DNA from: a virus
IMG/VR virus record: IMGVR_UViG_3300025671_000464
Span: 1-25,527 of that record
DNA: 25,527 bases
Reading direction: 5' to 3' (one strand)
Position numbers and translations under genes: made by a program. Below are positions 1 through 25,527 of this stretch, one piece after another (position 1 is the first letter of the stretch; each line of letters begins with the position of its first letter). A model generated the notes under the pieces. It ran no database searches, was not told where the DNA came from, and was given only the letters and a program-made list of their open reading frames with translations.

Positions 1-2224
1 TCATTCTGCCGACGGTAAACGAAGAAAGCGAACCAATGTCAAGACCTGAAGTATTAAGTAGATAACCGTCATTCGACCCATCAAACTCAACCGCAGGCTT
101 CCCGTTCTCCGTCACCACGCCCGTCGTGCCGTCGTAAATCTTCGGCATACTCGCCGTCGTCGTTTGCGCCGCGTCGTTCGTGTTGCCTGATTGGTCGTAC
201 CACTTCGATACGAACCCGTCGTTACTTCCGCAATGCGTAGCTAAAGCCGTAGTGTCAAGCTCCCCATCTGCAAATCCGATGTCAGCATACGAAGTGCCGT
301 TGTAAACTTCGACCGCATCGCCTGAGTAGGTGCTGGATAGTAAACGCAAGGAATAAGCCGCCGCCGAGCCTGTGTATGTGTCAAGTAATAACGTAGCTGG
401 CGCAACATCCTCCCACGTTTGTTTCAGGCTTATCGGTACAGTGCCGCCTGTGCGTGCTTTGAGGTATGCCAATAGCGTCGCCTTTGCCGTAGCGTATGCC
501 GTGTCGTCGGCGATGTCAGCGAACTGCGTCCAATCACCTGACGTGTCGGGGTCAGCCTGCGCTTTCTCAGCGTACCACAACTTGCGCCGAATCACATTGC
601 CCGCGCTTGGCGTGTCGCTTGATGCTGATTCGCTTAAGCCGTCGCCGTCAGCTTGCGCCGTATAGTACAGCTCGACCGTTTCCGTAGCGCCTGAACGTAG
701 CGTGCCCGCTTCCGTATCGTACCGCTGATGGTACTGCACGTCAACGGCAATGTCAGCCCACTCTACGTCGTAATCCGTCCCCGTGCTTTTCACGAGGGCT
801 TGCCCCGTCGTACCTCCTGCAATGAGAGAAACCTTCGCGTTGTTTGCTGTAATGTCGTCAGCTTGTTGGGTGGTTATGCCAACCTTTGCCGTGTTTGCTG
901 CTACGTCGGTATTGTTTGATACCTCGGTGTCAAAGTCGCTGATCGTACTCGCCGCCTGCGTTCCTGTGTGGTTTGCTCGGTCAAGTAAAAAAGCGTCCGT
1001 TTCGTTCGCAGTTGCAGAGGGAGCAACACCCTCCAATTTCGTGCGTTCATCATCGGTAATAATCGCACCGCTGCCCGCGCTCGTTACATCCGTCAAATCA
1101 GTAACGCTGGTGGGTATGTCCTCCGCTCGACCTAAAACGCCGCTTGTACTTGGTAATATGATTGTGGTGTCTTGCGTAGCGCCTGAGTTGGGGCGTATCC
1201 ATTGAGTAAAATTGCCGTACTCGAATTTAAAGTAAGTGCCAAACTTTACAAGTAGGTCAGCTACATTGGCCGTGCTTGATCCGTCCAAATGCAGCGCAGT
1301 AAACGCTGTGTCACCATCCGCGTCAGTCGCTACAACAAACTCAATATCACCGGGTGACGTTTCGGTCAACACGACCTTGGTTTTCCCTGTCTGTACGGTT
1401 GCCTTCGTTTGCTCTAGCTTTAACTCGCTCTCCGTGCCTGCGCCGTTTTTGACCGTTGTCTCTAAGCCTTTTCTAAACTCATCGAAGAGAGCAGTTGTGC
1501 GACCGTCTTTTACCCAACGCTGCAGACCGTCGTCCCATCGGATACTTTGACCCTCGAACGGGTTGGTAATTTGTACGTCGTCTAAAGCCACTAGCGTCGA
1601 AGCTCCGCCCGTATCTAAAGTAACTACGCCGTCTCCATCGTCCGTAAGTGTGCCGTTGGTTACTTTGATTGTGCGCACCGAAAGAACGTCCGTAGATCCG
1701 TCCTGCGTCAACATTCGGAGGATGCCCCTTCGCGCGTATGCTACTTCGTCTCCACCTTCGGGGCTTACCCCGTCGATAGGTGCGTTACAAGCGTCCCACT
1801 CGTAAGGGATCGCCACGGACAAATCCAAGAGAACGCCGGAGAGTACGTTCTTCGTCTCTTCCTCCAGGGGTGTAGTCGTGGCGTTTACTACTTCATAATC
1901 CTGAGCAAAGAGGAAGATGTTCCCGCCGTTTTTAATGTCCGCAATAATATCCTCTGCGCATTGCTCCGCATCGCTAACCACCTCCTTTTGACGGTCGGTC
2001 TTCTTCGTCTTATCGGCTGGCACGTCGAGGATATATACCTCGAGGTTATAGGTCTTCGTTCCTGCGTCGTATGTAGCTCCCGTATATACGAGATGCATAA
2101 GCGGAAACGAAGTAAACTTCGAGAGGTCTACGTCATCGGGTGACCCAAACGAAAACGACTTCACAAAGAAGTGCGCATCCGCAAATACCTTGAACCTTTC
2201 GACTATGTTATTGAACGTGATCAT
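1..2224 (-). CDS. Tail fibre / receptor-binding protein, 3' end beyond the left edge
   Basis: The frame is open without a stop from an ATG at 2224 to base 1, giving about 741 residues with the C-terminus missing. Residues 1 to about 150 (MITFNNIVERFKVFADAHFF...) look like a neck or tail-completion-type domain that Bacteroidota phages often carry as a separate gene. Residues about 395-470 are fibre-like: a LEGVAPSATANETD stretch, then HTGTQAASTISDFD and an Asn/Thr/Ala heptad region (NTDVAANTAKV) likely to form a trimeric coiled coil. From about residue 620 comes a beta-sandwich domain (AYSLRLLSSTYSGDA, YADIGF, ELDTTAL, KWYDQSGNTNDA, KPAVEFDGSNDGYLL). That pattern resembles the arabinofuranosidase-B (GH54-type) catalytic fold and LamG-like phage fibre tips. 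Host surface glycan binding or cleavage is inferred. The start overlaps the frameshifted end of the upstream tail-chaperone gene by 17 bases. Confidence 0.85.
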   Translation of the reverse strand, partial: MITFNNIVERFKVFADAHFFVKSFSFGSPDDVDLSKFTSFPLMHLVYTGATYDAGTKTYNLEVYILDVPADKTKKTDRQKEVVSDAEQCAEDIIADIKNGGNIFLFAQDYEVVNATTTPLEEETKNVLSGVLLDLSVAIPYEWDACNAPIDGVSPEGGDEVAYARRGILRMLTQDGSTDVLSVRTIKVTNGTLTDDGDGVVTLDTGGASTLVALDDVQITNPFEGQSIRWDDGLQRWVKDGRTTALFDEFRKGLETTVKNGAGTESELKLEQTKATVQTGKTKVVLTETSPGDIEFVVATDADGDTAFTALHLDGSSTANVADLLVKFGTYFKFEYGNFTQWIRPNSGATQDTTIILPSTSGVLGRAEDIPTSVTDLTDVTSAGSGAIITDDERTKLEGVAPSATANETDAFLLDRANHTGTQAASTISDFDTEVSNNTDVAANTAKVGITTQQADDITANNAKVSLIAGGTTGQALVKSTGTDYDVEWADIAVDVQYHQRYDTEAGTLRSGATETVELYYTAQADGDGLSESASSDTPSAGNVIRRKLWYAEKAQADPDTSGDWTQFADIADDTAYATAKATLLAYLKARTGGTVPISLKQTWEDVAPATLLLDTYTGSAAAYSLRLLSSTYSGDAVEVYNGTSYADIGFADGELDTTALATHCGSNDGFVSKWYDQSGNTNDAAQTTTASMPKIYDGTTGVVTENGKPAVEFDGSNDGYLLNTSGLDIGSLSSFTVGRM

Positions 2225-2348
2225 GTGCGAGCTTGTCTTTTAAATAGCTGAGATGTTGGAAGACGACTTGAATAGGGAGTTCCGTAACCTTGTCCATCTT
2301 GAGGAGGTCTTCTCCTGCGAGGGCGTGGAGGACGTGATACCACCCCCA
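2208..2348 (-). CDS. C-terminal part of tail chaperone made by -1 frameshift
   Basis: In the -1 frame relative to the gene starting at 2893, the sequence after a run of five A and five G encodes 46 residues that read like real protein: WGWYHVLHALAGEDLLKMDK, then VTELPIQVVFQHLSYLKDKL, ending AHDHVQ. A fused product would be about 228 residues. The Trp/Tyr-rich start followed by an amphipathic helix with TELP resembles the C-terminal extension of tail chaperone fusion proteins. No good independent start explains this segment, because an ATG at 2432 in this frame would give a 5' part without protein character. Its stop overlaps the fibre start. Confidence 0.6.
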   Translation of the reverse strand, partial: WGWYHVLHALAGEDLLKMDKVTELPIQVVFQHLSYLKDKLAHDHVQ

Positions 2349-2893
2349 TTTTTCGCCGACCGGATCGCTGCCTCCGCTACCTCCAGTAAAGAGGACTTCA
2401 TATCGAGCAGCAGTTCGTTTCTGGTAGTCCAAAAAAAAAGCAACGTACCGGATACGAGGTCTGCGGGCATCTCTTCAAATATCGAAGCGTCTTCTTTGGC
2501 GGTGTATTTCTTTACCTCGTATTTCTCCCCGAGTTCGTAGGTTACTTCCCGGAAGAGAACCGACATTACTTTGTGCGCGTTCTTCCAAAAGTCCTCGAGG
2601 TAGTTTTCCAGGTCGATCCATTCGCCCGCCGTGAAAGCATCCCAATCGGGAACGAATCCGAATCGTTTTCCGTCCATCTCAACCACTTTCTCGAAGCGTG
2701 CGGTCTCTTGGGTAAGGAGTTGGTCTATATGCGCTCCTGCGGCTTCTATGAGCTTCTGCGGCATGGTACGCAGTTTGTCCACGCTCTTGCCCGTGCAAGC
2801 GGAGATCCGTTCGAGTTGGTTCTCGCTTGTCATCATTACTTGCAGTTCCCCGAGCGTGAGGTCTGACCATCGGTGAGGGAGGCGTAATTCCAT
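2240..2893 (-). CDS. Probable tail assembly chaperone, zero-frame product
   Basis: This 217-residue protein (MELRLPHRWSDLTLGELQVM) has a convincing globular part up to about residue 182, including FGFVPDWDAFTAGEWIDL and the FWKNAHKVMSVLFREV segment. I associate that pattern with Bacteroidota phage tail assembly chaperones. The last 35 residues (GGGITSSTPSQEKTSSRW...) are Ser/Thr-rich and do not look like a folded end. In the -1 frame the same stretch encodes a far better C-terminus, so this is probably the short product of a lambda G/GT-style pair. The start ATG has an A-rich leader (TTTAAACG). The gene lies between terL and the fibre rather than next to the tape measure, which is unusual. 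The family assignment is from memory and moderately sure. Confidence 0.7.
   Translation of the reverse strand: MELRLPHRWSDLTLGELQVMMTSENQLERISACTGKSVDKLRTMPQKLIEAAGAHIDQLLTQETARFEKVVEMDGKRFGFVPDWDAFTAGEWIDLENYLEDFWKNAHKVMSVLFREVTYELGEKYEVKKYTAKEDASIFEEMPADLVSGTLLFFWTTRNELLLDMKSSLLEVAEAAIRSAKNGGGITSSTPSQEKTSSRWTRLRNSLFKSSSNISAI
2343..2353 (-). other. Candidate frameshift (slippage) site
   Basis: On the minus strand the zero-frame codons read GCG AAA AAT GGG GGT, and the downstream product needs a -1 shift. The site is a run of five A, one T and five G. It is not a perfect X XXY YYZ heptamer: a slip on G AAA AAT or T GGG GGT leaves a first-position mismatch in the P site. Insertion of one base by polymerase slippage on A5 or G5 would give the same frame change. 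Which mechanism applies cannot be told from sequence. Confidence 0.45.
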
Positions 2894-3002: not shown

Positions 3003-4151
3003 TTACCCGATTGCGTAGCTCCCGAAGTTCGGGTTGGTTTGGTTGAAGGTAATCGCATACCGCATAGCGTCGATAGCGTGGTTAAATTGGTCTACGGGTT
3101 CATTCAGTTGCTTGCCGTTCTTATCCTCCTTCCATTTGTAGTTGCGAAGCTCTTTGATAAGGTTCACACTCCGCGCCGTGACAAGTAGCGGGCGCGAATG
3201 GAGGAACTGGATTCCGCTTCTAACCGAATCGCGTCCCTTTCTTGCTCCGTGAGTATTGAATCCGTGGCCGTGTATCTCGTCGATGCTCTTTGGTTCAGCG
3301 GAGTCACACACGACAACATCCGATCTATCGACGTTATTATCTCGGAGCATTTGTGCGATATTGCTATTAGTGAGGCGCGTTGCGTAGCAGAGTTCGTCGA
3401 CTGCGAAGCCGTGGCCGTCGGTGTATACTCTGACGATCGCGGTGGGGTCGTTCGTATATCCGAAGTCGAGCCCGATGTTGAGGAGTTTAAATTCATTTGG
3501 TATTTGGTCTATTTCTTTCCAATGGGTGAAGATGGTTGCCCGGCTTGTTCCTCGCTCTCCGAGTCCGTACACCCTCCAGAAGTTTTCATCTGCTTCTTTG
3601 AAGCGTTCAATCTCCAGGAGTACACTTTGCGGGAGGAAGGGGTTATCCTTGTACGTCGTTTTAAAGAAGTCGCAGTCATCGCGGTTTGGTAAGTCGTAAA
3701 GCCAATGGAATTCGTCGGAGGGGTTGAAATCGACAATGATTCTCCCCGTGGTTCTTAGGATAAGTTGCCGCCAATCTTCGAGGGTTATCTCGTTGGCCTC
3801 GTTGATAAAGAGAACATCGCGCTTTCGCCCTCGCACCTTCTGCGGTTGATCCACCGAAATAAACTCCACGAGGTTTCCCCATAGCTGGTAGGTGGCTTCC
3901 GATTTGTTGTGAAGCTCGACGTTATACACGTCCTCATTTTCGAGTATCTCGAAGAAGTCCCGCATGGCTGTAGCACGGAGGGCGGGGAATGTCTTCCGGC
4001 AAATGGTTACTACGAGGCCGGAGTTCTTGTGGCATAGCTCTATGAGGCTTTGAAGTATCGAATACGTCTTGCCGGATCGCGTCCCGCCTTGGTGTACCTG
4101 GATGCGCTTCTTTGAGTTCCTTACGTGGTAATATGTGGCGGGTAGTTTCAA
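3003..4151 (-). CDS. terL: Terminase large subunit (ATPase and nuclease)
   Basis: This is the packaging motor that cuts concatemeric DNA and pumps it through the portal. The 382-residue protein has Walker A GGTRSGKT at 22-29, Walker B DVLFINEAN at 112-120, and a C-terminal RNase-H-like nuclease. The likely metal ligands are D229 in LDFGYTNDP, D283 in CDSAEPK and D361 in NHAIDAMRY. Length is normal for the PBSX/phage terminase family. The start is a TTG: the frame has a stop 17 codons upstream and no ATG before residue 62, and KLPATYY matches where family members begin. The TTG overlaps the stop of a 45-codon ORF as TTGA, which points to translational coupling. The call is firm and the start is probable. 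Confidence 0.95.
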   Translation of the reverse strand: MKLPATYYHVRNSKKRIQVHQGGTRSGKTYSILQSLIELCHKNSGLVVTICRKTFPALRATAMRDFFEILENEDVYNVELHNKSEATYQLWGNLVEFISVDQPQKVRGRKRDVLFINEANEITLEDWRQLILRTTGRIIVDFNPSDEFHWLYDLPNRDDCDFFKTTYKDNPFLPQSVLLEIERFKEADENFWRVYGLGERGTSRATIFTHWKEIDQIPNEFKLLNIGLDFGYTNDPTAIVRVYTDGHGFAVDELCYATRLTNSNIAQMLRDNNVDRSDVVVCDSAEPKSIDEIHGHGFNTHGARKGRDSVRSGIQFLHSRPLLVTARSVNLIKELRNYKWKEDKNGKQLNEPVDQFNHAIDAMRYAITFNQTNPNFGSYAIG

Positions 4152-4312: not shown

Positions 4313-4660
4313 TTATTTTTCATCCAACCACGAGAGGGGCTTTTTCTCTTGTACCTCTATCTCTTGCCGTTCTATGTATCCGCGCTTCTTGCCTTTGGTC
4401 TTTAGAAAGAAGATGGTAGCTGCGGGGTTGCCTTCTTTTACGAGCTTGTAGAGGTGGCTTTCTGCGAAGTCGAGAACGCCGTCCTGGATGGAGTTTACCG
4501 CGCTCTTATATTCTTCGTCTGCCTTGAGCCATGCGTAATGGGTGGAGCGGTCGATACCTACCATCTTCGCAGCGGTCGATACGATACCGAGTGACTTCTC
4601 CAAGGCTTCCAACATAGCCTCTTTTTTGGTGTTGGATTTGTTGTGTTTTACGGCTTCCAT
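4313..4660 (-). CDS. terS: Terminase small subunit
   Basis: This is the DNA-recognition subunit of the packaging terminase. The 115-residue protein has an N-terminal helix-turn-helix (GIVSTAAKMVGIDRSTHYAW, about 25-44) and then an oligomerisation region with NPAATIFFLKTKGKKRGYIE, a signature of small-terminase families seen with PBSX-like large subunits. It directly precedes terL in transcription. The start overlaps the end of the methyltransferase gene by 13 bases. The C-terminus is charged (KKPLSWLDEK), as expected for the part that contacts TerL. Confidence 0.88.
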   Translation of the reverse strand: MEAVKHNKSNTKKEAMLEALEKSLGIVSTAAKMVGIDRSTHYAWLKADEEYKSAVNSIQDGVLDFAESHLYKLVKEGNPAATIFFLKTKGKKRGYIERQEIEVQEKKPLSWLDEK

Positions 4661-5775
4661 AGCTCCGCCTTTTTACCTGTGAAGTCCTCCCATCGTTTTA
4701 CGATAACATCGCAATATTTAGGATCTAATTCCATTCCGTAGCATTTGCGCGCTGTTTTCTCCGCTGCTATTAGAGTTGTACCCGAACCGAGAAAGGGGTC
4801 GACCACTATCCCCTCCGTCCATTGAATTACCTCTTCCAAAAGCTCCACGGGTTTCTGTGTAGGGTGTAGGTTGTTTCCAGTGCGGTCGTGTTGCACCACG
4901 TCCGTTGGTCTTTTGTTCGGCCATTTATGGTTTTTGCCTGCATAAAAAGCGCAGACCTCGGTTTGTCTTGCGTGTTCGTGTTCTAAGTCGCCCATAGACC
5001 AGTTATTTTTCACCCACGTTATTACGCTTTTTGGGTGCGGTATACTTCCTAAATTATCCCATCTACACCAAACGTATCGGGCAAAGTTTACTGGCCATGA
5101 GCACGCAGTGTGAAGGCATTTATCGTCCCCGTCATTTTCAATTACGCGATGCTTATCTTTTCTATGATTGCTCTGAAAAGCCATGCCGTAAGGGGGGTCT
5201 GTAACAAGTGAATCCGCCTTCTCTCCGTTCATTAGCTTCTCCACGTCCTCCGCTTTTGTAGAGTCCCCACAAAGCAAACGATGCTCCCCCAAGATATACA
5301 AGTCTCCGAGTTTGGTCTTCGGTTCTTCCGGTACTTCGGGTACTTCGTCGGGATCGGTGAGGCCTTCGGTCGGTTCTTCGTCCGGAGTCCAAACGTCAAG
5401 CCCCCATTCTTCTAACTCCACAGCATCCCATTCGTTCGCTAGAATATCCCAATCCCATTCCCCGAATCCGACGTTATCTTTTACAATAAACTCCTTCGCC
5501 TTGCTTTCTTCCCACGAAGCGACGTAAACAGGTGCCTCGGTCAATCCTGCGGCCTTGCAAGCCTTCAGGCGCATATTACCCCCGAGTACAATCATATCGG
5601 GGTTTACGACTATGGGCCGCGCTTCGAGCATCTCCGGGAAGGTCTGAATGCTTCGAACCAGTTTCTCGAACTTGTCCTCTTTAATTGTCCGAGGGTTGTT
5701 CGGGTTCTCCCGGATCTCCGAGAGCTTCGTGCGCTTGAACGATAACGGCCTCGAGGGTGTGGAGGAATTCGGCAT
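4648..5775 (-). CDS. ParB-like / DNA methyltransferase fusion
   Basis: This 375-residue protein has two parts. The ParB/Srx-like N-terminal domain (LSFKRTKLSEIRENPNNPRT, 11-30; VLGGNMRLKACKAAGL, 63-78) is joined by an acidic Pro/Glu linker (about 130-155) to an amino-DNA methyltransferase. Motif IV is DPPYG at 193-197 and the SAM-binding motif I is DPFLGSGTT at 326-334, so IV precedes I, the beta-type order. It should methylate adenine N6 or cytosine N4 in a short recognition site. No restriction partner is nearby, so it is an orphan enzyme, likely protecting phage DNA or marking it for packaging. The gene sits directly before terS. Its start overlaps the preceding small ORF by 95 bases, but no later ATG would keep the ParB domain. 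Confidence 0.92.
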   Translation of the reverse strand: MPNSSTPSRPLSFKRTKLSEIRENPNNPRTIKEDKFEKLVRSIQTFPEMLEARPIVVNPDMIVLGGNMRLKACKAAGLTEAPVYVASWEESKAKEFIVKDNVGFGEWDWDILANEWDAVELEEWGLDVWTPDEEPTEGLTDPDEVPEVPEEPKTKLGDLYILGEHRLLCGDSTKAEDVEKLMNGEKADSLVTDPPYGMAFQSNHRKDKHRVIENDGDDKCLHTACSWPVNFARYVWCRWDNLGSIPHPKSVITWVKNNWSMGDLEHEHARQTEVCAFYAGKNHKWPNKRPTDVVQHDRTGNNLHPTQKPVELLEEVIQWTEGIVVDPFLGSGTTLIAAEKTARKCYGMELDPKYCDVIVKRWEDFTGKKAELWKP

Positions 5776-9090: not shown

Positions 9091-9117
9091 AAAAAAAAGG
9101 GGGCTAAAGCGCCCCCT
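9091..9117 (-). terminator. Rho-independent terminator of the middle operon
   Basis: On the minus strand a 7-bp G+C-rich stem (AGGGGGC/GCCCCCT, loop GCTTTA) is followed by eight T. The stem begins within the last codons of the HTH gene. It separates that operon from the promoter at 9058-9088. Confidence 0.85.
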
Positions 9118-10228: not shown

Positions 10229-10358
10229 TGTTTATGTATCGTTCGAGGTTCGTAATTGAGGACTGGACTTCAAAGAGGAGGCGGTCTATGTCTTCGCCGG
10301 CGTACTCTTCCTGTGCCCAAGCGTAGTATTTCTGTACGTCTTCTTTTAGTTGGTTCAT
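10185..10358 (-). CDS. Small hypothetical protein, 57 residues
   Basis: The ATG at 10358 overlaps the stop of the preceding 91-residue gene as ATGA. The product (MNQLKEDVQKYYAWAQEEYA) is helical and acidic in its first half (EDIDRLLFEVQSSITNLERY) and basic at its end (NEFKRKAMGKARMR). A coiled-coil dimer is plausible. No family is recognised. Confidence 0.55.
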   Translation of the reverse strand: MNQLKEDVQKYYAWAQEEYAGEDIDRLLFEVQSSITNLERYINNEFKRKAMGKARMR

Positions 10359-10630
10359 AGGATACGGGTTTGAATGTCGTTCTTCAATTTACGCATATCA
10401 ATATCCAGGTAGTCCGTTACGTGGATCTCTGAAATATCAATTTTACTTGCTCCCCCTCGACAGAGAAAGACGCGCTCAATATCGATAGGCGTAAAGCGTG
10501 GGCCGTTAATCTCGGTGTTCTTGCCCGACCCTTCCAGCGTGAGTTGGTCGTATGCCTTGCGGCGGAAGTAGACCTCAAGAGTCATCGAGTCGATGAGGTC
10601 AACGTGGATTGATTCAAGTATTTGTTCCAT
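10355..10630 (-). CDS. Hypothetical protein, 91 residues, first gene of the middle operon
   Basis: The protein (MEQILESIHVDLIDSMTLEV) alternates beta-like and charged segments (YFRRKAYDQLTLEG, RFTPIDIERVFLCRGGASKI) and has no membrane segment. Its leader (CGATTTAAACA) matches that of the tail chaperone gene. It starts about 70 bases downstream of the terminator of the lysis operon, so it probably has its own promoter in that gap. I do not recognise the family. Confidence 0.65.
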   Translation of the reverse strand: MEQILESIHVDLIDSMTLEVYFRRKAYDQLTLEGSGKNTEINGPRFTPIDIERVFLCRGGASKIDISEIHVTDYLDIDMRKLKNDIQTRIL

Positions 10631-10789
10631 TGTTTAAATCGTTTGTTGAGGCAATGTTCAAACAAAAATCCCTTAAATCCAAATTTTCTTTTAAAATGTC
10701 AAAAAAAAGAGGGAAGCCCCGTTGAGCCTCCCTCCCTGTACAAACGATGTAAAACAACAGCTGAACCTGTAACAGCCCTCTAATATACT
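10631..10789. other. Intergenic region with terminator and probable promoter
   Basis: This is one of the two longest non-coding gaps. It contains the terminator at 10701-10734. Downstream of it, on the coding strand, is an A+T-rich stretch (10640-10700) with several TTTG boxes. I could not find a TTTG/TAnnTTTG pair with proper spacing; the best -7 candidate (AAAATTTG) has one mismatch and a wrong spacer. A promoter for the middle operon must still lie here if the terminator is efficient. Confidence 0.5.
10701..10734 (-). terminator. Rho-independent terminator of the structural/lysis operon
   Basis: On the minus strand GAGGGAGGC and GCTTCCCTC form a 9-bp stem with one G-T pair and an 8-base loop, followed by eight T. 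It lies 56 bases after the holin stop. Confidence 0.9.
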
Positions 10790-11215
10790 CTACTTCTGGG
10801 AAGAACCAAAGTAATAGTTAACGACTTGCCCCACGAGCGTACCTTCTGCAAAACCCAGAATATGGAAGAAGATCTCCTTGTCCTCTACCCCGGACTTCGC
10901 CCAAATCACCATAGTAATTCCAATAACCATCGCGGCAATACCGACAAAGGACTGCATCCAATCCCGCTTGTTGAGGGTCTTCGTTATTTCTATCTCTCGG
11001 TTCCTTGCGTTGGCGCGATCCGCGTTGGCAAACTCCGCAAGCATGAGCCGCGCTTTCTCTTTTTCCTCTTCGCTCTCCGTACTCGCGTCAATTAATGCGC
11101 CTATAGCCTTTAAAGCATCGCCCCCGGGCACCACCTCCCCGATAACCTCGAAAGCCTTTGGAGCTTTGTTTCTAAACCATTCTCCTAATTTGGTATCCTT
11201 GAGTTTCTTTTTCAT
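10790..11215 (-). CDS. Holin
   Basis: This 141-residue protein has a charged, helical N-terminal half (GDALKAIGALIDASTESEEE; an Ala/Arg-rich amphipathic helix to about 85). A clear membrane segment follows (QSFVGIAAMVIGITMVIWA, about 89-108), then a second hydrophobic stretch (IFFHILGFAEGTLVGQVVNY). This matches the '3TM holin' type often found with M15-type endolysins. It should form the membrane lesions that release the endolysin. It is the last gene before the terminator. Confidence 0.78.
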   Translation of the reverse strand: MKKKLKDTKLGEWFRNKAPKAFEVIGEVVPGGDALKAIGALIDASTESEEEKEKARLMLAEFANADRANARNREIEITKTLNKRDWMQSFVGIAAMVIGITMVIWAKSGVEDKEIFFHILGFAEGTLVGQVVNYYFGSSQK

Positions 11216-12537: not shown

Positions 12538-13097
12538 CCGAAATACGCTTTTAAATCTACGAGCCGTGGGTATCGGCTCTGCCCGCTTATGCTCATACCG
12601 CTTTGATAGTAGTCCGCTGGTTGTGGAATCATGTCCGCGCCCGTGTTAGAGCTGTACTCGGGGAACAAAGAGGAGTTATTGCAGAGGTATTCGTAAAGGC
12701 GGTACGAGTAAAATTGTGCGTTCTGACGCGCTCTTTCTACTTCGCGGTGCAAGTCGTCCGGGGAGATGGCTTGCGTGTCTTCTGAGACCCTTAAAACGAG
12801 CGAGCCGTTATCCATCTTTACGTACAACGAAGGGATAAGCTCTACCATCGTCCACCAGAGGGTGGCTTTACGTACATACGAATCCATCAACGTAGCGTAA
12901 TCGCCCGACAAAGAAGAACCGGAAATATCACTCTTCAACTTCTCGAGGAGATCCGTACCCAAGTACAGTTGAATATACTTGTCCTGCGCGAGGATGATAG
13001 AAGGCACGAGATACGCATCCTCGAGGCTTCCGTTTATGTTGGTGATCCGCTTGATATAGTCCGGATTCACGAAGAGTACTTCTGCTGTAAGTGCCAT
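12534..13097 (-). CDS. Putative head-tail connector protein
   Basis: The 187-residue protein (MALTAEVLFVNPDYIKRITN) has a helical core (SIILAQDKYIQLYLGTDLLE; YATLMDSYVRKATLWWTMVE) and a Tyr/Ser-rich tail. Position and length fit head-tail adaptor proteins (gp6/gp15-like), and this sequence type is common next to portals in Bacteroidota phages (I think of the DUF6712 type, from memory). It lies directly downstream of the portal with no gap. It should bridge portal and tail. Confidence 0.6.
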   Translation of the reverse strand: MALTAEVLFVNPDYIKRITNINGSLEDAYLVPSIILAQDKYIQLYLGTDLLEKLKSDISGSSLSGDYATLMDSYVRKATLWWTMVELIPSLYVKMDNGSLVLRVSEDTQAISPDDLHREVERARQNAQFYSYRLYEYLCNNSSLFPEYSSNTGADMIPQPADYYQSGMSISGQSRYPRLVDLKAYFG

Positions 13098-15183: not shown

Positions 15184-15699
15184 TCAGGAACCAGCCGTGA
15201 AGGTGATATTCGCGTCCGAAGAAGAAACGAACGGAGCAGGAATAGCCTCCTCGGCTGTCAATTGGATTTGGTAACCGTTCAAGTCGCCCTTCGCGGTTCC
15301 CGTGCCGACGGTTCCTCCCGTTGCTTCTGCTCCGGTAGTGTGCCCCATCAACATATAGTTGTCGTTGTTGTCTTGGATGATAACGGCAAGACGGCTCTTC
15401 AACAAGTCGTAAATCTCTTCGTTATCCGTTGCACCGAGGTTCGGCATAGTCAACTCCAAAACTTGAGAGAAGAAAACCGTTCCGTTCTCAACTGAGGCCG
15501 TAACCGTCTGTTGGAATGAACCGCTGTTCTTCGTCAATTCAAAACCGTAAACCGTAATAGCGGTATCCGCTGCAATTACGCCGGAAGTAATTGAACCCCA
15601 ATCGTCCGCGTCGAATGCCTTGATCCAAACGCGCTTGATTCCTCCGATTTTGTCTTTACAGGGGAAGGAACGCCCTGAAACTGTAATACTACAAGCCAT
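15184..15699 (-). CDS. Candidate major tail tube or decoration protein
   Basis: The 171-residue protein (MACSITVSGRSFPCKDKIGG) is beta-rich with VTASVENGTVFFSQVLELTM, a segment RLAVIIQDNNDNYMLMGHTT and a Gly/Thr/Ala loop, ending in LNGYQIQLTAEEAIPAPF. That ending is typical of a Bacteroidota phage structural family. It lies right after the major capsid gene and is flanked by hairpins, as for an abundant virion protein. Tail tube fits best by fold pattern. A capsid decoration protein is the alternative. Confidence 0.6.
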   Translation of the reverse strand: MACSITVSGRSFPCKDKIGGIKRVWIKAFDADDWGSITSGVIAADTAITVYGFELTKNSGSFQQTVTASVENGTVFFSQVLELTMPNLGATDNEEIYDLLKSRLAVIIQDNNDNYMLMGHTTGAEATGGTVGTGTAKGDLNGYQIQLTAEEAIPAPFVSSSDANITFTAGS

Positions 15700-24454: not shown

Positions 24455-24821
24455 GGTCAATCATGTATTGTTGATCCCGAATCGTGGTATCGCTTGGTAC
24501 GATGTGTCCGAACGGGAACTTGTTATTAGTTTGAACGTATGCGGAGAGCGAATACCGTTCCTCGGATGTAAGCTCGGGAAAGCAAGCCACCAACTTCTCA
24601 AGCGTTGCAGCTTCGTGTACCTTAATAACGTAATCCGTATCCACTTGCAGCGCGTTCTGTACGCCGTCGGGATGCGTTACAATTGGAAAAACGGTGGAAG
24701 CCGCTTCCCCTTCTGCCTGAATAAGTACGGGCCGCGAGATGTTGTAAAGTTCTCGCGTGATTTGGTACGCTCTTCGTTCGCTTGTCTGCGTGGCGGTTGG
24801 TAGAACTATGATGTACTGCAT
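24426..24821 (-). CDS. Hypothetical protein downstream of the tail fibre, 131 residues
   Basis: The protein (MQYIIVLPTATQTSERRAYQ) has an alternating beta/alpha layout (YDI-like VLIQAEGEAASTVFPIVTHP; YVIKVHEAATLEKLVACFPE) and a polar C-terminus (DQQYMIDHGWFPEEDI). The start shares one base with the fibre stop, so translation is coupled. I do not recognise it. A fibre chaperone or virion accessory fits its place. Confidence 0.6.
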   Translation of the reverse strand: MQYIIVLPTATQTSERRAYQITRELYNISRPVLIQAEGEAASTVFPIVTHPDGVQNALQVDTDYVIKVHEAATLEKLVACFPELTSEERYSLSAYVQTNNKFPFGHIVPSDTTIRDQQYMIDHGWFPEEDI

Positions 24822-25527
24822 CAGTAGATTGAATAGAAGGTGTTGATGTTGTCCTCGATGTTCGTGCGGTTGCTCGATTGGTCAGAACCGTAAATTATTA
24901 CCTCTTGGACATTGCAATTGGCATAAAAGGCTTCATCTAAATTTGCGATTCCGTCTTGCCCCGATGCAGCGCCCGTTGTTCGGGTAGCTGTCCCTACGCT
25001 TGTTGAATTCAGCCACGCTTCAACACCGTTCAATGTTGTTCCTGCAATCATTGTGTGCAAGTTTTGATTGGTGTCTTGTGTCGTTGTTATTGCTGTTGCA
25101 CTGTCGGCGTATCCATAGTTGAAGTTTCCGCTTGCTATGAATGGCGCGTACCAACGCTTGTTCCCATCTGAACCGCTTAAACCCAACATTACAGCGTTTG
25201 ATATTGTTATCATTCTGCCGACGGTAAACGAAGAAAGCGAACCAATGTCAAGACCTGAAGTATTAAGTAGATAACCGTCATTCGACCCATCAAACTCAAC
25301 CGCAGGCTTCCCGTTCTCCGTCACCACGCCCGTCGTCCCGTCGTAAATCTTCGGCATATCCGCCGTAGTCGTTTGCGTGGCGTCGTTTGAGTTGGATGAC
25401 TGGTCGTACCAGTAACGAATGAACCCATCGTTTGACCCACAGTGGGCAGCCAAGGCCGTCGTGTCAAGTTCACCGCTTCCGTCAAACCCGATGTCTGCGT
25501 AACTCGTGCCGTTCCAAACGTTAATTG
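24821..25527 (-). CDS. C-terminal part of a second tail fibre, 5' end beyond the right edge
   Basis: The frame is open from the right edge to a TGA at 24821, giving 234 visible residues. It begins inside the same beta-sandwich domain as the left-edge fibre (VWNGTSYADIGF, GELDTTALAAHC, YWYDQSSNSNDATQTT, KPAVEFDGSNDGYLL). It then shows the end that is missing there: RWYAPFIASGNFNYGYADSA, VEAWLNSTSVGTATR, EAFYANCNVQEVIIYGSDQS and IEDNINTFYSIY, a usual phage LamG/GH54-like ending. An internal TTG near 25453 is not the real start. It is a likely receptor-binding tip. The first 127 bases of the window match 25211-25337 exactly. Confidence 0.85.
   Translation of the reverse strand, partial: INVWNGTSYADIGFDGSGELDTTALAAHCGSNDGFIRYWYDQSSNSNDATQTTTADMPKIYDGTTGVVTENGKPAVEFDGSNDGYLLNTSGLDIGSLSSFTVGRMITISNAVMLGLSGSDGNKRWYAPFIASGNFNYGYADSATAITTTQDTNQNLHTMIAGTTLNGVEAWLNSTSVGTATRTTGAASGQDGIANLDEAFYANCNVQEVIIYGSDQSSNRTNIEDNINTFYSIY

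Follow-up and report, generated by a model that had tools for sequence, protein, structure and literature searches.

A -1 frame switch at a conserved T9 run in a putative tail chaperone gene of phages near P12024, with transcriptional slippage as the favoured mechanism

In tail assembly of the lambda type, the G part of the chaperone pair G/GT binds the tape measure protein and the T part binds the major tail protein, both chaperones being absent from virions, and the shift that yields GT is a classic example of ribosomal frameshifting. The lambda G/GT tail assembly chaperone and its relatives were reportedly treated by Xu, Hendrix and Duda in 2004. Here we ask whether a gene in a virus record of 25,527 bases (the whole stretch analyzed, hereafter the window) encodes such a pair, at which point its reading frame changes, and whether the ribosome or the RNA polymerase slips there. 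The minus strand of the window carries, in this order, terS (4660-4313), terL (4151-3003), the ORF of 217 residues in question, and a fibre-like gene, whose start codon (ATG at 2224) lies within the last part of the -1 frame. On its own account we mention a single ORF at 4648-5775 with an N-terminal ParB-like and a C-terminal DNA methyltransferase-like part, both named by eye from the sequence.

An earlier note on this DNA had claimed a tail chaperone gene with a programmed -1 shift at A5-T-G5, far from the tape measure gene. Its description of the locus was confirmed: the gene comes after terL and before the fibre-like gene, the zero-frame ORF closes with a Ser/Thr-rich tail (ORF list and translation), the -1 frame encodes WGWYHVLHALAGEDLLKMDK and 26 further residues up to the stop (translation), and A5-T-G5 lies at the position given in Table 1.

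Table 1. Features of the putative chaperone gene and of its neighbourhood in the window
Feature	Position	Strand	Remarks
Zero-frame product (G-like), 217 aa	2240..2893	-	ATG at 2893, TAA at 2240-2242
-1 frame extension (T-like), LDYQKRTAARYEVLFTGGSGGSDPVGEKWGWY...HDHVQ	2208..2432	-	Stop at 2208
T9, putative slip run (A9 on the plus strand)	2431..2439	-	Zero-frame codons CTT TTT TTT TGG (2429-2440); holds heptamer U_UUU_UUU
Double-read stretch, zero-frame codons 155-177	2363..2431	-	Mixed substitution pattern; predicted helix 144-182
Zero-frame tail, codons 178-217, Ser/Thr-rich	2243..2362	-	Changes mostly at sites silent in the -1 frame
A5-T-G5	2343..2353	-	Within the -1 frame extension; not the shift point
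Terminase large subunit	3003..4151	-	Adjoins the chaperone gene upstream; PF04466, PF17288, phrog_2
Fibre-like gene	2..2224	-	Adjoins downstream; split by the contig end, other part at 24821-25525 (ORF list)
Tape measure protein, 545 aa	18244..19881	-	phrog_9483, 1506, 1538 (tail length tape measure)

Selection on the two frames

A protein search of IMG/VR yielded 80 close relatives (77-100% identical), of which 78 were used (the other two run off their contigs). With gene 38 of Nonlabens phage P12024S as the query, 63 loci that were 25-99% identical to gene 38 were retrieved and 62 of them used, and a third query, which ended at the slip codon of the locus L147, gave 80 loci (42-100% identical to the query). 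As the last query stops at the slip codon, it imposed no selection on the run or the Phe-Phe (FF) encoded there. The pooled set comprised 222 loci after dropping two repeats; L125 is a second copy of P12024L. Among phage records, P12024S and P12024L were the only convincing relatives. The -1 peptide of the window as the query matched P12024L alone in these records (E 0.3), and the T-domain as a tblastn query matched none of them. None of the 97 candidate stretches in bacterial genomes was confirmed as a relative, and L136, used as a search query, matched itself alone.

Parsimony changes were counted over the 78 close relatives. Before the run, the zero-frame positions 1, 2 and 3 had 190, 74 and 1000 changes, respectively, and the numbers were 7, 157 and 52 over zero-frame nucleotides 534-651. 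The ratio of second- to third-position changes thus turned from 74:1000 to 157:52 (Fisher p 1.7e-96); note that the zero-frame second positions are the third positions of the -1 frame. Over nucleotides 462-534, there were 15, 30 and 42 changes, and the 24 nucleotides that begin with the first run codon (453-476) had two changes in total. Among the same relatives, codons 155 to about 173-176 were constrained in both frames, and the zero-frame constraint fades over codons ~174-177. Codon 218 was the zero-frame stop in 78/78. The -1 peptide could be aligned from T9 itself, starting with FFL and followed by L16, F17 and W31-Y34, across relatives that share 28-99% identity with the window; W31, G32, W33 and Y34 were invariant in an alignment of 49 sequences, made up of the window and 48 such relatives. 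As conservation of the -1 frame sets in at the run and the substitution pattern agrees, we place the switch at T9. Altogether, comparison of the relatives shows both putative products to be under selection and the switch to lie at the T9 run. The frame change in this gene is real, and the claim of a programmed -1 shift is strongly supported. The gene would then have what is expected of a G/GT-type pair, namely a short ORF with a selected -1 extension apparently made as a fusion.

AlphaFold gave the zero-frame protein a confident domain, a long helix (residues 144-182) and an unstructured tail (residues 184-217). The double-read stretch corresponds to the C-terminal part of this helix and, in the -1 frame, to a Gly/Ser linker. 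The zero-frame tail had been regarded as lacking protein character, which fits residues 184-217 (pLDDT <50) but not codons 155 to ~173, which are constrained in both frames and sit in the predicted helix. We also considered whether the openness of the zero-frame tail indicates selection, by fixing the -1 peptide and resampling its codons. This signal was weak (P of about 0.05 in the window, 0.02-0.77 among eight relatives) and the argument was set aside; we thus make no functional claim for the zero-frame tail beyond codon 177.

Conservation of the T9 run

The T9 run was unbroken in 221 of the 222 loci, some of them as distant as about 25% identity; in the remaining one (L136), it was T10. By set, T9 was found in 78/78 close relatives, 61/62 distant relatives and 80/80 loci from the query ending at the slip codon, in the same phase. 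TTT TTT is preceded by CTT, GTT, ATT or TTT and followed by TGG, TAT or TAC. The first and ninth T are mostly fixed by the encoded residues (Leu/Val/Ile/Phe before and Tyr/Trp after), which counts against the polymerase. In the set from the query ending at the slip codon, the codon directly after the run alternates freely between TAT and TAC.

Neither Phe codon in the run changed at its third position in 174 unique sequences (0 changes), as compared with 17-37 changes at other conserved two-fold sites (26 at F80, 37 at H107 and 17 at Y130). The eighth T is of particular interest. Replacing it with C would alter neither product (Phe stays Phe, and Leu TTG/TTA becomes Leu CTG/CTA) and would leave the heptamer U_UUU_UUC, yet T8 was invariant in 174/174. 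Because T8 is free in both frames and the heptamer would be kept, its constancy points to the homopolymer itself. We consider that the invariance of T8 could be explained only by the need for an unbroken homopolymer or by a ribosomal A site that strongly prefers UUU. A run of at least nine A or T conserved in length across homologs, as expected for transcriptional slippage, is present.

Elsewhere in the ORFs of 142 loci (1.1 Mb), T9 occurred seven times, at two kinds of place. As a separate observation, six relatives belonging to one group have a second T9 in an ORF, lying about 2.1 kb upstream of the chaperone T9: L154 (position 3362), L169 (3362), L170 (2376), L176 (1953), L181 (114) and L184 (3362). 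Between listed genes of the window lie two A8 runs, which read T8 on the coding strand (9091-9098 and 10701-10708); they are its only other runs of at least eight.

Slipping by the RNA polymerase and its alternatives

According to a passage in Baranov et al. (2005; PMC1088944), a run of nine A or nine T conserved in length among homologs very likely serves purposeful transcriptional slippage, and a passage in Atkins et al. (2016; PMC5009743) describes efficient slipping of bacterial RNA polymerase at nine A or T. Transcription insertions prevail in A/T runs; in E. coli and Buchnera, those found in runs were all in A/T runs and none in G/C (Traverse and Ochman 2017; PMC5574713). We favour slipping by the RNA polymerase rather than the ribosome as the likely cause of the switch, since T8 is never C and no consistent downstream structure was found; the exact length of nine and the near absence of Shine-Dalgarno-like 5-mers were counted on the same side. 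The unslipped mRNA (U9) would yield the 217-residue zero-frame protein. On occasion of copying T9, the polymerase would add one U (U9 to U10), ribosomes on the U10 mRNA would read on normally in the -1 frame, and the product would comprise residues 1-154 fused to the linker and the WGWY helical domain. The explanation as a whole, a two-product G/GT-like chaperone gene with slippage of the RNA polymerase on T9, seems reasonably probable to us. Transcriptional slippage had been suspected in the earlier note; the suspicion gains support, but the site is T9, unnoticed then, and not A5/G5.

In line with polymerase slippage, the gene resembles Thermus dnaX and Shigella mxiE as portrayed in a passage of Baranov et al. 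(2005; PMC1088944), in that a length-conserved run of nine A/T is present and one inserted base opens an overlapping frame. It differs from them in being a phage tail gene, in that slippage is predicted, and in that the phase of the run also suits ribosomal slipping. Separately, the +1 frame has a stop within about four codons after the run in 62/62 distant relatives (L125-L186), which could end the products of slipping in the other direction or merely follow from the conserved residues. With this early stop, transcripts shifted the other way in the distant relatives would yield a truncated zero-frame protein only. In the close relatives, the +1 frame is open for 10-27 codons in 56/78 and for longer in 22.

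The foremost alternative, which we regard as rather unlikely, is programmed -1 ribosomal frameshifting at U_UUU_UUU within T9 on unedited mRNA, as in lambda G/GT. Known G/GT systems rely on ribosomal -1 shifting, as a passage in Atkins et al. (2016; PMC5009743) states, and a heptamer of the form X_XXY_YYZ is correctly phased, as U_UUU_UUU, in every relative examined. That the phase of the run is always NTT TTT TTT T counts against the polymerase, for which phase is not needed while the ribosome needs it, but the conserved FF would fix the phase regardless. On the other side, T8 is never C even though U_UUU_UUC stays slippery and silent in both frames. The homopolymer would thus be constrained beyond the needs of ribosomal slipping, with the caveat that UUU in the A site may be slippier than UUC, which would also retain T8 and speaks against the polymerase. 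Neither of the stimulators expected for ribosomal frameshifting, a downstream structure or an upstream Shine-Dalgarno element, appears to be kept: there was no consistent downstream RNA structure in 18 representatives and the window (in models free of pseudoknots; single upstream or downstream outliers had z of -2 to -3), and AGGAG or GGAGG occurred within 20 nt upstream of the run in just 3/222 loci.

It is very improbable that the two frames are separate genes, the -1 ORF having its own start, perhaps with translational coupling. Genes 38 and 39 of P12024S and their counterparts in P12024L are annotated in this way, and a start codon precedes WGWY in 8/62 distant relatives. However, the 78/78 close relatives offer just a TTG within the run before WGWY, 52/62 distant relatives have no start between the run and WGWY (two were unreadable), and the -1 frame residues directly after T9 are conserved. 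In P12024S/L (L002 and L003), a TAATG stop-start overlap is found at 13020-13035, where the -1 ORF is annotated separately. This annotation leaves the T9 shift, which lies upstream of TAATG, unrecognised, and an own start at TAATG is possible as a second route in this branch.

A shift at A5-T-G5, the only conspicuous run near the WGWY peptide in the window, is refuted by comparison with the relatives, and we rejected this site with hardly any doubt left. Both A5 and G5 were intact in 21/78 close relatives as opposed to T9 in 78/78, the relatives having AAAAAT, AAAAGT or AGAAGT and GGGGG, GGGGA or GGGGC at these places, all silent in the -1 frame. The conservation of the -1 frame (FFLDYQK...Y..LF) begins already at T9, about 80 nt upstream of A5-T-G5, which is missing at that place in the distant relatives inspected. 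A sequencing error or a decayed gene, conceivable as homopolymers are error-prone, is likewise counted as refuted and next to impossible by T9 in 221/222 loci from separate contigs, by purifying selection on both frames, and by the fact that a relative with one continuous frame, for which the earlier note advised looking, was found in 0/222 loci.

Chaperone identity, gene order and implications

The chaperone reading is based on the architecture, that is, a short protein and its -1 extension in a structural block with the tape measure, portal and neck-like genes. Inspecting the ORF list by eye, we recognised no other such pair adjoining the tape measure gene. The identity claimed in the earlier note is thus plausible by architecture, though homology does not show it, and we infer that the two proteins quite probably act as G and GT, bridging the tape measure and major tail proteins. 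A tentative candidate for the major tail protein, guessed from its appearance, is at 15184-15699. The searches of Pfam and of PDB folds with the chaperone candidate gave no match, and the PHROG matches of the gene were families of unknown function. The match to the 'tail protein' family phrog_166 was weak (6/48 members, best E 0.0037), as was the Foldseek match (E 0.05) to a single named tail assembly chaperone. Many uncharacterised phage proteins share the zero-frame fold, P12024S gene 38 among them (Foldseek, E 1.1e-12). The model of the -1 domain was poor (pLDDT 65), and its BFVD matches all had E >4. A Flavobacterium phage 6H gene (10352-10927) was considered as a structural relative, having been equated by length alone with a Foldseek hit (E 3e-3); it has no T9, and we dropped it.

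The gene shares with lambda G/GT, as outlined in a passage of Atkins et al. (2016; PMC5009743), the short gene with a -1 extension, the linker plus helical T-like domain, and the location among the structural genes of a tailed phage that has a tape measure protein. Unlike lambda G/GT, with which homology was undetected, the slip site here is a strictly kept T9, 63 zero-frame codons past the run overlap the -1 frame, and the gene adjoins terL and sits 6.8-8.7 kb before the tape measure gene, not adjacent to it. The homologous genes of the Nonlabens phages (38/39 in P12024S and 40/41 in P12024L; phrog_32199 and phrog_38404), with 26% identity, have CT9 in the matching phase and are also sited after terL, but their zero-frame product is shorter (175 aa) and they are annotated as two hypothetical proteins.

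In the window, the tape measure gene is 15 kb away linearly, but the ends of the record fall within the fibre gene, whose two parts sit at opposite contig ends and share a direct repeat of ~115 bases (9-124 and 25218-25333). The genome in this record, of about 25.5 kb, is probably circular or circularly permuted and would have been cut within that repeat; the spacing of 15 kb is partly an artefact of the cut. In 11 relatives with both genes, the order was terL, chaperone, fibre, neck, tail and tape measure on one strand, and the chaperone gene lay upstream with a spacing of 6.8-8.7 kb, as measured from the end of the chaperone match to that of the small gene immediately preceding the tape measure gene. 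In P12024S, where gene 49 matches tape measure families, the two genes are on the same strand and about 6.4 kb apart. The chaperone gene is not immediately upstream of the tape measure gene, as G/GT-type genes are expected to be; it is truly non-adjacent, yet upstream as usual. The displacement claimed earlier holds in this sense, but the distance in the relatives is about half of the 15 kb stated.

In the open-access literature that we searched, we found no published case of transcriptional slippage for a tail chaperone; subscription papers lay mostly outside this scope, and absence is unproven. A passage in PMC6095929 mentions slippage for the tape measure protein of an Acinetobacter prophage. 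On balance, we lean slightly towards the view that, in a large aquatic phage lineage near the marine flavobacterial phage P12024, the ratio of the short to the long chaperone is set by slipping of the host RNA polymerase on an invariant T9, which would replace the ribosomal frameshift and write the stoichiometry into the mRNA population. The comparison corrects the split annotation in P12024S/L and suggests what phrog_32199 and phrog_38404, two PHROG families of unknown function, may do. If the proposal is true, the RNA polymerase, and not the ribosome, can set the same two-protein ratio, and the lineage, in which T9 is kept including a base free in both frames, offers a clean test of such a polymerase-set ratio.
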